NCBI RefSeq assembly: GCF_947494755.1
Contig: NZ_CANLVZ010000002.1
Location: 248,001 to 312,000, forward strand
From: an uncultured Tateyamaria sp.
Lineage (GTDB): Bacteria > Pseudomonadota > Alphaproteobacteria > Rhodobacterales > Rhodobacteraceae
Direction of reading: 5' to 3'
DNA length: 64,000 bases
Below are positions 23,682 to 26,625 of this stretch, piece after piece. How positions within the stretch are numbered: position 1 is the first letter of the stretch; each line of letters starts with the position of its first letter. A program made the translations under genes and the position numbers. The notes below the pieces were generated by a model. That model was given only the letters and a program-made list of their open reading frames with translations. It did no database searches and was not told where the DNA came from.

Positions 23682-24140
23682 TCAGTCGCGCGCGGCATCC
23701 AAGAAGATGCGCAAATCCGTCAGCACAGGCTGAATCTCGGACAGACGACTGGTGTCGAATCCTCGTGCCAGTTCGGCGAAATCAGGCCCCAGATCGACGA
23801 TCACACGGGCAAACAGCGCCCTGCCCGCCTCCGTCAACCAAACGCGTTTTGAGCGGCCATCCTCTGGGTTCGGGCGCATCTCGATTAACCCCAGACCATC
23901 CAGCCCCTTCAGGGTGTGGGTCATCGAGGTCTTGGGCACTTGAAAGGCGCGGGCCATATCAATCGGGGTCTGACCGTCCCCGCGGTGGCTCAGATGGCTC
24001 AGCACCGAAAAATGCGGCGCGATCAGACCACCCGGCAACCGCGCCTCGAGAATGGCGCGGCTGAGCTGCTCGATGATCCCGATTTCCTTGAACACCTCAA
24101 AGATCACGCCAACATCATGGCCGCCTTGCCCGTCATCCAT
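23682..24140 (-). CDS. MarR-family transcriptional regulator
   Basis: A 152-residue winged-helix regulator. The recognition helix region is TPIDMARAFQVPKTSMTHTL, followed by the wing with EDGRSKRVWLTEAG. Helices at both ends would form the dimer. It is transcribed 18 bases after the Tat-exported nitroreductase gene, so the pair is very likely an operon. The shared promoter region carries two identical palindromes 21 bases apart, the best candidate site for this repressor. The likely signal is an oxidant, quinone or nitroaromatic, judged only from the partner gene. Confidence 0.9.
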   Translation of the reverse strand: MDDGQGGHDVGVIFEVFKEIGIIEQLSRAILEARLPGGLIAPHFSVLSHLSHRGDGQTPIDMARAFQVPKTSMTHTLKGLDGLGLIEMRPNPEDGRSKRVWLTEAGRALFARVIVDLGPDFAELARGFDTSRLSEIQPVLTDLRIFLDAARD

Positions 24141-24158: not shown

Positions 24159-25304
24159 CTACCCTTCCAAGATCTTACGCTCCAGCGGCCAGCGCGGGCT
24201 TTGACCCACCTCGGGGCCATAGCCAATGCGGGCAAACATCTGCACGGTGCCACCGTCCGGCGCGAACCGGGCATGCAGGTCTTTATATATGTCCGACATT
24301 TCCGGGTACTCCTGCAAGCCCTGGCTGAGCGGCTGCATCCCCAGACCCGCACGCGTAGTCGCAAGGTTCAGCCGCAACCAGTCGCGCCCGGCATTGATCT
24401 GATCGGTGCGGGTGTTGGCCGGCGTGACCTGCCAGATGTGGCCCATCGCGGTGTCGGCATTCTCGAACACCGCCTTCAACCCGCCGCGATAGGCCATAGA
24501 CGACTGATCAAGGGCCGCTTCCCGCGAAAAAGCCCCGGTCAGGGCCATCGCCTCGAAGGCGGGGCCGGAAAAGTCGATGCCGTCTGGATTGGCCTCGACC
24601 TCGCGGCTGCCAATGCGGAACAGATCCACGCTTTCCTTATAGGTATGCGGGGTTTCGATTTCGATGCGCAGGGCCACGTGACTGATCTCGCGCAATGCGG
24701 CAATGTCGCCGGGGGCAACTGTGCCGTTGACTTGGGTCCGCTCGGCAGCGGCGATCACGTCCGCAAGGACGCCCGGATCAACAGGGCGCGCAGTGTCATA
24801 GGGTTCCTTGAGCGAGCGGCGCTGCATGACATGGGCAAAGAGATCATGCGCAGGTACCTCAACCCCTTGCACAAACCGCGCCACGGCCACCCGGCGCGTA
24901 TCGAGCCCGCTCGGGTCCTCCCCGTCGGGGAACAGATCAAGCTCGACCCCATACCCCTGCTGAGCGGCCGCGAGCGTCATCAACTCCAGAAAACAACCCA
25001 AGCCCACAACGATTTGGCGGTTGAACGGGTCGGTGTGCGGCAACAGCCGGTCCGTATCGACATGCAGCGTGACTTCATCATCGCGGCGCAGGTCAACCAG
25101 CCATGGTTGGCGATTGTGTGGGTTGGGCGCGAGGATCGCATAGGACAGCGCGTTCATGCGGGGATCAGAATAGCCACCGGCGGCTGTCCACGGGGCCAGC
25201 GCGCTGTTCGGTGTTCGGGTGACGGCCAGCGCAGCCGCGCCGCCCGCGGCCACGATGAACCCACCACCCATAAGGGCGAGTGTCTTGCGACGTGAAAGGG
25301 TCAT
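24159..25304 (-). CDS. Acg-family FMN-binding nitroreductase, Tat-exported
   Basis: A 381-residue oxidoreductase. The N-terminus SRRKTLALMGGGFIVAAGGAAA has the twin-arginine and hydrophobic stretch of a Tat signal. Nitroreductase-like FMN-binding residues are spread over two half-domains (APNPHNRQPW, MQRRSLKEPYD and LATTRAGLGMQPLSQGLQEY), as in the Acg group. Such proteins bind FMN and are linked to nitro compounds or redox stress. The Tat signal suggests the protein acts in the periplasm with its flavin inserted before export. It is the first gene of an operon with a MarR regulator. Confidence 0.85.
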   Translation of the reverse strand: MTLSRRKTLALMGGGFIVAAGGAAALAVTRTPNSALAPWTAAGGYSDPRMNALSYAILAPNPHNRQPWLVDLRRDDEVTLHVDTDRLLPHTDPFNRQIVVGLGCFLELMTLAAAQQGYGVELDLFPDGEDPSGLDTRRVAVARFVQGVEVPAHDLFAHVMQRRSLKEPYDTARPVDPGVLADVIAAAERTQVNGTVAPGDIAALREISHVALRIEIETPHTYKESVDLFRIGSREVEANPDGIDFSGPAFEAMALTGAFSREAALDQSSMAYRGGLKAVFENADTAMGHIWQVTPANTRTDQINAGRDWLRLNLATTRAGLGMQPLSQGLQEYPEMSDIYKDLHARFAPDGGTVQMFARIGYGPEVGQSPRWPLERKILEG

Positions 25305-25323
25305 GGGTCTCTCCTTAGGTTAA

Positions 25324-25354
25324 TGCGATATCGCACCACTATAGTCCGATATCG
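25324..25354. promoter_or_regulatory. paired palindromic operator, probable MarR site
   Basis: The perfect palindrome TGCGATATCGCA (25324-25335) and a second CGATATCG (25347-25354) have centres 21 bases apart, two helical turns. They lie 20 bases upstream of the nitroreductase start and in the region shared with lldD. This fits two dimers of the co-transcribed MarR protein on one face of the DNA. Confidence 0.65.
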
Positions 25355-25458
25355 CCCCAAATAAAGTCCTACATTGCACTAAATAGAGGGTCGTAAGTTT
25401 CATATTGCTAAGAAATCGCAGTATTGGTAAGTAAATATGACCAATCCAGAGGGTTATC

Positions 25459-26625
25459 ATGACCGCCATCACCAACATCGAAGATCTCAAGCGCATCTAT
25501 GAACGCCGGGTGCCCCGCATGTTCTTCGACTACTGCGAATCGGGCAGTTGGACCGAGCAGACCTTCCGCGACAACTCCTCGGACTTCGATGACATCCGCC
25601 TGCGCCAGCGCGTCGCTGTGGACATGTCCGGGCGCAGCACCGCGTCCCAGATGATCGGACAGGATGTGGCGATGCCCGTTGCGCTGGCCCCGGTGGGCCT
25701 CACCGGCATGCAGCACGCGGATGGAGAGATGAAAGCCGCCCGCGCGGCCGAAAAGTTCGGGGTGCCGTTCACCCTGTCGACCATGTCGATCAACTCGATC
25801 GAGGATGTGGCGGGCTTTACCGATGCCCCTTTCTGGTTCCAGCTTTATACCATGCGCGATCAGGATTACGTGTCGCGCCTGATCCAGCGGGCCAAGGATG
25901 CGAACTGCTCGGCGCTTGTGATCACCCTTGATCTGCAAATCCTCGGTCAACGGCACAAGGACATCAAAAACGGGCTGTCGGCCCCGCCCAAACTGACGGC
26001 CAAGACCATCGCAAACCTCGCCACGAAGTGGGGTTGGGGGATCGAGATGCTGTCGGCCAAGCGCCGCGATTTCGGCAATATCGTGGGCCATGTCGAGGGC
26101 ATCTCGGACACCTCCCAACTGGGCGCATGGACGGCAGAGCAGTTCGACCCGTCGCTCGACTGGAACAAGGTCGCCAAGCTTAAAGAGCAATGGGGCGGCA
26201 AAGTCATCCTCAAGGGCATTCTGGATGCCGAGGATGCCAAGATGGCCCTCAAGGTCGGGGCGGATGCGATTATCGTGTCGAACCATGGCGGGCGGCAGCT
26301 TGACGGGGCGCTGAGTTCGATCCGCGCTTTGCCTTCTATTCTGGATGCGGTCGGCGATCAGATCGAGGTGCATCTTGATAGCGGCATCCGGTCGGGTCAG
26401 GACGTCCTGAAGGCCCTCGCGATGGGGGCCAAGGGCACCTATATCGGCCGCGCTTTCATCTACGGCCTTGGCGCGATGGGTCAGCAAGGCGTGACCGAAG
26501 CGCTCAACATCATCCACCGCGAGTTGGACACGACCATGGCGCTGTGTGGCGAAACGAACGTCAACAACCTAGGGCGTCACAATTTGCTGGTGCCCGAGGG
26601 ATTCGAGGGGCGCTGGCAGGATTAG
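25459..26625 (+). CDS. lldD: FMN-dependent L-lactate dehydrogenase (alpha-hydroxy-acid oxidase family)
   Basis: A 388-residue FMN barrel. The N-terminal RVPRMFFDYCESGSWTEQT, the catalytic region VSNHGGRQLDGALS with His and Arg, and DSGIRSGQDVLKALAMGA at the phosphate site are typical of LldD and glycolate oxidase relatives. It would oxidise L-lactate to pyruvate and pass electrons to the respiratory chain. AGAGGGTTATC precedes the ATG. It is divergent from the nitroreductase-marR operon, so the paired palindromes could affect it too. A double hairpin follows its stop. Other 2-hydroxy acids are possible substrates. Confidence 0.88.
   Translation: MTAITNIEDLKRIYERRVPRMFFDYCESGSWTEQTFRDNSSDFDDIRLRQRVAVDMSGRSTASQMIGQDVAMPVALAPVGLTGMQHADGEMKAARAAEKFGVPFTLSTMSINSIEDVAGFTDAPFWFQLYTMRDQDYVSRLIQRAKDANCSALVITLDLQILGQRHKDIKNGLSAPPKLTAKTIANLATKWGWGIEMLSAKRRDFGNIVGHVEGISDTSQLGAWTAEQFDPSLDWNKVAKLKEQWGGKVILKGILDAEDAKMALKVGADAIIVSNHGGRQLDGALSSIRALPSILDAVGDQIEVHLDSGIRSGQDVLKALAMGAKGTYIGRAFIYGLGAMGQQGVTEALNIIHRELDTTMALCGETNVNNLGRHNLLVPEGFEGRWQD

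Follow-up and report, generated by a model that had tools for sequence, protein, structure and literature searches.

Judged from sequence comparisons, the three palindromes O1, O2 and O3, located upstream of an oxidoreductase-marR operon in the 64,000-nucleotide stretch of uncultured Tateyamaria DNA analyzed here (the window), are predicted with high confidence to be sites for MarR dimers that would repress their own operon, with the divergent lldD gene controlled independently. A local, autoregulated MarR repressor is very probably the best reading of this region, and its candidate operator is conserved in many related bacteria. The regulation is of an ordinary kind, repression by blocking polymerase and autoregulation being established behaviors of MarR regulators; the operator-recognition signature is unusually clean. 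The core idea of a preliminary description of this DNA, a MarR operator upstream of the operon, is right, and its extensions to lldD and to a redox signal are unsupported. For an operon that is uncharacterized, the analysis predicts the operator, its binder and the layout of the promoter, and it yields a residue-base pairing that can be tested. The operator and its repressor also offer a route to the inducer of Acg-like flavoproteins.

Tandem candidate operator dyads and their conservation

The preliminary description placed two palindromes, TGCGATATCGCA and CGATATCG, in the intergenic region, and their coordinates were confirmed (25324-25335, centre 25329.5, and 25347-25354, centre 25350.5; 21 bp apart). 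The repeated unit is longer than the 8- and 12-mers first described, extending over 18 nt (25321-25338 and 25342-25359, 83% identical). Operator O1 (AATGCGATATCGCACC, 25322-25337) includes TGCGATATCGCA, and operator O2 (AGTCCGATATCGCCCC, 25343-25358) includes CGATATCG; each has one mismatch to the dyad consensus RGTNCGANNTCGNACY. An aligned copy of O1 was present in most orthologous operons, and the geometry of O2 was conserved. A degenerate third copy, O3 (AGTCCTACATTGCACT, 25365-25380), was found 22 bp beyond O2 with 2 mismatches among 12 defined bases; at the window's own rate, the probability of such a copy at such a spacing is about 0.001. Neither O3 nor a separate palindrome before lldD (25423-25445) was noted in the preliminary description.

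Queried with the oxidoreductase, 66 of the 248 family genomes sampled gave a match, a count that takes in distant paralogues. Collection yielded 121 loci, of which 116 were distinct after five duplicates were dropped and 107 were suitable besides the window; the window itself was left out of this set, as were L029, L067, L089, L121, L126, L127, L128 and L141, where marR was missing or distant, the upstream sequence was short, or the start lay on a fragment. The consensus RGTNCGANNTCGNACY was derived from the same loci, the 8-mer CGATATCG was fixed beforehand from the window, and both were scored within 110 bp of the start codon. With up to three mismatches, RGTNCGANNTCGNACY occurred in at least one copy at 105 of the 107 other loci, in at least two copies at 97 and in at least three at 21, compared with means of 9.6 loci with one copy and 0.47 with two (maximum 4) in shuffled sequences. 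The preliminary description had proposed looking for the same paired site before orthologous operons, and it is there at these 97 loci; the other 10 fall short of two dyads under this rule. The 8-mer CGATATCG, with up to one mismatch, gave one copy at 93 and two copies at 62 of the 107 loci (shuffle means, 8.7 and 0.4). Among the omitted loci, two dyads with up to three mismatches were found in L029, L089, L121 and L128, and L067 had one in its 47 bases; L126, L127 and L141 had none at this threshold.

L127 and L141 encode Acg homologues that have no marR gene next to them. Likewise, among the more distant Acg paralogues examined (17 loci, L202-L218; 24-45% identity), none has dyads paired at 19-33 bp close to the gene; L208 has a single loose pair, with a 33-bp separation, some 1.8 kb from it. 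Of the closer group, the partial loci L219 and L220 both carry pairs. Only two loci with marR beside lldD and without the oxidoreductase were informative: L225 has a clean dyad upstream (GGTGCGACCTCGCACC), and L221 has degenerate copies only. No dyad was detected in the 300 bp upstream of the more distant MarR relatives L222-L224. The upstream pair was also absent from the marR contig of genome G207 (L226), where the oxidoreductase lies on another contig (L029), and this locus was hence left uninterpreted. The computation shows that the operator dyads are largely specific to the oxidoreductase-marR operon. A weak, convergent MarR-like frame was noted near the distant paralogue L218. The marR gene of L225 (G104:C1:1913500-1920000) is a second copy, directly divergent from lldD, in a genome that carries the full operon elsewhere (L028).

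We also considered that the palindromes might reflect chance or codon usage. Single copies of CGATATCG are common, with four in the window against 0.9 expected, and GCGATATCGC has 27 copies in the genome against three for its control, an abundance for which GAT-ATC codon usage is suspected. A genome-wide search for single dyads with up to one mismatch gave 40 hits, close to the 35 obtained with the reversed pattern as control, and a wider regulon is therefore not claimed. Against such an origin, the pair is intergenic, is conserved far above shuffled sequences, and is the sole occurrence of CGATATCG-N8..26-CGATATCG in the 4.1-Mb genome, which leaves chance with a negligible probability.

The operon products and the candidate binder

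The first gene of the operon (24159-25304, minus strand) encodes an FMN-binding oxidoreductase whose signal peptide is of the twin-arginine type (SRRKTL). The protein scored 238.7 bits against NCBIfam NF047509, above the curated cut-off of 199, and thus belongs to the Acg family. Its twin-arginine signal predicts Tat export; of 108 oxidoreductase sequences, counting the window's, 107 have RR in their N-terminal segment and L115 has KR. The closest named relative is that of uncultured Tateyamaria L113 (91% on the oxidoreductase), and the sole solved relative found by sequence is 2ymv, Acg. A Pfam search with this protein (P0002) at E 0.001 returned no family, Nitroreductase included, which does not by itself exclude that fold. 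The protein resembles the mycobacterial Acg/Rv3131 flavoproteins in its family (by the NF047509 cut-off) and in the structure 2ymv. The available part of a study of Mycobacterium tuberculosis reports that an acg mutant was more sensitive to nitrofurans and that its authors doubted nitroreductase activity (PMC3110807), which makes the enzyme label uncertain here. The name nitroreductase given in the preliminary description needs a caveat: the product belongs to the Acg-family flavoproteins and its activity is uncertain, and M. tuberculosis Acg itself is possibly not a nitroreductase. Mycobacterial acg is described in the same source as being under DosR control (PMC3110807); here, in contrast, a MarR gene lies in the operon and the protein carries a Tat signal.

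The second gene (23682-24140, minus strand), separated by an 18-nt gap, encodes the proposed binder of O1-O3. The protein (P0001) matched PF12802 with 42.3 bits (cut-off 27), and its structural model (mean pLDDT 93.5) matched MarR structures with Z up to 16.1 and an rmsd of 3.2 over 142 residues. By its winged-helix domain and its fold, it is a MarR-family member. Regulators of this family bind palindromes of some 16-20 bp at their own operons as dimers, and the dyads conserved here measure 16 bp. Residues D94 and R96 were invariant in 30 sequences. DSSP analysis of the model placed the recognition helix at residues 70-82 (23895-23933, minus strand).

Covariation between this protein and the operators was analyzed by phylogenetic regression, with operator bases as response and MarR residues as predictors, using the half-sites of the two best dyads per locus and, because related species are not independent, the oxidoreductase tree. 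L132, which has no half-sites, was excluded from the regression, and L081 and L034, which have broken frames, were also excluded from the simulations. Residue 71, the second of the recognition helix, was the top of 508 predictors for T at operator base 4 (t -9.43; t -9.39 without the two broken loci), and none of 1000 simulated traits was as strong. The oxidoreductase tree implies at least 11 changes at this position. With T71, operator base 4 is seldom T (mean 0.22 of half-sites), and N, A, P, G or S at position 71 go with T. More modest covariation was seen for base 5, where residue 69 was the top predictor (21 of 1000 simulations), and for base 6, where it was residue 71 (31 of 1000 simulations). 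This covariation suggests that the co-transcribed MarR itself is likely the binder of O1 and O2.

GATATC-type palindromes could fit several regulator families, and another regulator might act on the conserved dyads with MarR as a mere passenger in the operon. Two observations argue against this view: the dyads covary with the recognition helix of the operon's own MarR, and no pair lies upstream of L127 or L141, the Acg homologues that lack a neighboring marR. We consider it very improbable. The candidate MarR operator upstream of the oxidoreductase-marR operon, as put forward in the preliminary description, is thus upheld by its presence at most of the orthologous loci, by its absence at L127, L141 and the 17 distant paralogues, and by the covariation with the recognition helix. 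SlyA probably contacts bases through Pro61 and Arg65. In Streptomyces coelicolor SCO3205, the recognition helix is described as contacting bases via Arg72, Ser73 and His77 (PMC3737563, in part), and these residues resemble K70, T71 and H75 here, as a pattern match only. On balance, we lean toward a readable MarR-DNA recognition code, in which residue 71 and base 4 show parallel changes, over tandem operators in near-helical phase. Operators of this type would then form a new class within the MarR family, one that controls exported Acg-like flavoproteins across Alphaproteobacteria.

The window's MarR contains no cysteine, and the same holds for 69 of the 108 MarR sequences aligned, a few N-terminal residues being absent from some of them; the commonest cysteine site was column 99, with Cys in 29 of the 108. 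The absence of cysteine from the window's protein excludes a thiol redox switch and makes a ligand more likely, so the redox signal proposed previously finds no support. A thiol-based redox MarR of the OhrR or YodB type, which relies on a reactive cysteine, was rejected for P0001 on the same ground. The genome also encodes a MarR paralogue with 32% identity (G000:C3:149328-149726, L227), in whose 5.2-kb locus no dyad with up to two mismatches was detected. Matches of similar strength to this paralogue occur in most family genomes, 219 of 248 having a hit at E 1e-10, and in related loci it seems, from our own reading of the sequences, to come after a carbon-nitrogen-hydrolase-like frame.

Dyad spacing and promoter geometry

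The spacing between adjacent dyads (n=119) was 20-22 bp in 91 cases, 29-32 bp in 13, 23-26 bp in 8, and other values in 7. The two-turn spacing noted in the preliminary description is thus a real preference, and the helical phasing makes cooperative or same-face binding plausible. Nine near relatives were examined (L017, same genus; L051-L056, L113 and L124, Tateyamaria), and each of them has a third copy at a distance of 21 or 22 bp from O2. The distance from O2 to O1 was 21 bp in the window and in L113, and 29 or 30 bp in the other eight (L017, L051-L056 and L124); a spacing of 21 bp is therefore not required. The longer distance corresponds to about one extra helical turn, O3-O2 staying at 21 or 22 bp. 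Promoter geometry, instead of cooperativity, may be the cause of the spacing. Upstream of the oxidoreductase in L045 and L077, the operators are each asymmetric and mutual mirror images (CGATATGG ... CCATATCG), which makes the pair as a whole a palindrome.

Promoter-like elements were positioned relative to the distal dyad at the 90 loci (the window among them) where the pair is spaced by 20-22 bp. TTG lay at -8 in 38 loci, -2 in 17, -7 in 16 and -6 in 14, and TAnA lay at +15 from the dyad start in 54 and at +17 in 32. These offsets suggest that the distal dyad usually occupies the stretch between -35 and -10, and the proximal dyad the start region. In the window, the commonest offset, +15, predicts a -10 element TATAGT at 25338-25343 (minus strand), with a weak predicted -35 element TTTATT at 25360-25365 (minus strand); O2 would then occupy the spacer, and O1 would cover the region where transcription from the oxidoreductase promoter is expected to start. 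A scan of 25250-25500 for sigma-70 consensus promoters and terminators returned nothing.

In the proposed mechanism, MarR dimers on O2 and O1 would exclude RNA polymerase, so that both the Acg-like exported flavoprotein and MarR itself would be repressed; release of MarR would be caused by a small ligand and not by a cysteine switch. We also weighed an activating or dual role for MarR, exerted through the distal copy. O3 lies at and upstream of the predicted -35 element and at least three copies were counted at 21 of 107 loci, as such a role would suggest; the two best copies, however, lie between the predicted -35 and -10 elements and at the start region, where they would block polymerase. 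Activation from the distal copy is accordingly rated as improbable, and simple repression remains the preferred reading.

The NprR/NprA system of Rhodobacter capsulatus is possibly related, and among the literature matches listed nothing concerned NprR/NprA. The PecS/UrtR subgroup is marked by PecS-type spacing of its sites and by urate-binding residues. The Dickeya PecS operator is CGANWTCGTATATTACGANNNCG, with a block spacing of about 15 bp; like it, the operators described here have two CGANNTCG-like blocks flanking an AT-rich center, but the blocks are 20-22 bp apart and each is extended to a full 16-bp palindrome. As far as the available parts of the reports describe them, Vibrio vulnificus PecS (PMC6391409) and S. 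coelicolor SCO3205 (PMC3737563) are similar to the present system in having a winged helix-turn-helix regulator encoded at the locus and two intergenic pseudo-palindromic sites, and the V. vulnificus PecS sites were predicted to face opposite sides of the DNA helix. Unlike in the arrangements described there, the copies here are 20-22 bp apart on one promoter, marR is downstream in the operon and not divergent, and the consensus and the regulated gene differ. None of the open-literature matches listed was recognized as dealing with this operator; PMC5343134 and PMC10458429, in the parts available, are general background only.

The divergent lldD gene and its own palindrome

The divergent neighbor (25459-26625, plus strand) encodes an lldD-like FMN-dependent alpha-hydroxy-acid dehydrogenase (PF01070, 438 bits). 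The protein scored 419 bits against the L-lactate dehydrogenase model NF008398 (cut-off 376) and fell under the cut-off of the LldD model NF033901. Its predicted promoter consists of TTGCTA (25405-25410) and TAAGTA (25428-25433), separated by 17 bp (25405-25433, plus strand). The promoter does not overlap O1-O3 but a separate palindrome, ATTGGTAAGTAAATATGACCAAT (25423-25445), which is conserved at lldD loci and probably serves a GntR/FCD regulator; a similar layout was seen by eye at several lldD-only loci.

The preliminary description suggested that lldD shares the region and perhaps its MarR control, and that lactate oxidation could be tied to the same signal. Such a bidirectional operator would be compatible with the position of lldD, which is divergent and no more than 260 bp away at 45 of the 107 other operons, with the location of O3 only 24 bp from the predicted lldD -35 element, and with the two marR genes beside lldD without the oxidoreductase (L221 and L225). 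Matches to lldD were found in 98 of 100 genomes, and the best 30 loci were read, of which four, window included, have the oxidoreductase beside lldD; the remaining 26 do not have the operon alongside, some of these genomes (for example G081, G087, G089 and G095) carrying it elsewhere. Among these 26 loci, the lldD-type palindrome (ATTGGTNA-N7-TNACCAAT, up to three mismatches, within 120 bp) was retained in 20, and two GATATC dyads within 250 bp were found in only one, a distribution that speaks against control of lldD by O1 and O2. The MarR pair is moreover retained in most operons without lldD, and O1-O3 lie outside the predicted lldD promoter. Coupling of lldD to the MarR sites is thus unlikely; the gene, read in the opposite direction, would instead be controlled through its own promoter and palindrome, independently of MarR.

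The lldD palindrome itself was present at 38 of 45 operons with a divergent lldD, compared with 2 of 62 operons without. Its core pattern matched five times in the genome, and the reversed control gave none; the matches lie before lldD, malate synthase G (glcB), a GlcD-like gene and a GntR/FCD regulator, with one inside a short ORF. The GntR regulator (G000:C13:113559-114329 in this genome) was found in 45 genomes, and among the best 30 orthologues, which were read with this genome's own copy included, 20 had an lldD-type palindrome upstream. According to the parts of the reports available, the E. coli LldR box is AAnTGGTCnGACCAnTT (PMC10272880) and Paracoccus GlcR represses glycolate oxidase (PMC11323563). 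The palindrome resembles these systems in its TGGT/ACCA arms, its lactate or glycolate oxidation targets and its GntR-type regulators, and differs from the E. coli box as described in having arms 8 bp further apart (PMC10272880, PMC11323563). The shared palindrome, its target genes and the likeness to LldR and GlcR make it most likely that lldD belongs to a GntR-controlled glycolate/lactate regulon, the regulator being the putative binder. The link to lldD is corrected accordingly, neighboring lactate oxidation appearing to be part of a separate regulon. ATTGGT-N11-ACCAAT sites were located at 25423-25445, G000:C1:50303, C8:112559 and C13:114344, and probably mark this glycolate/lactate regulon.
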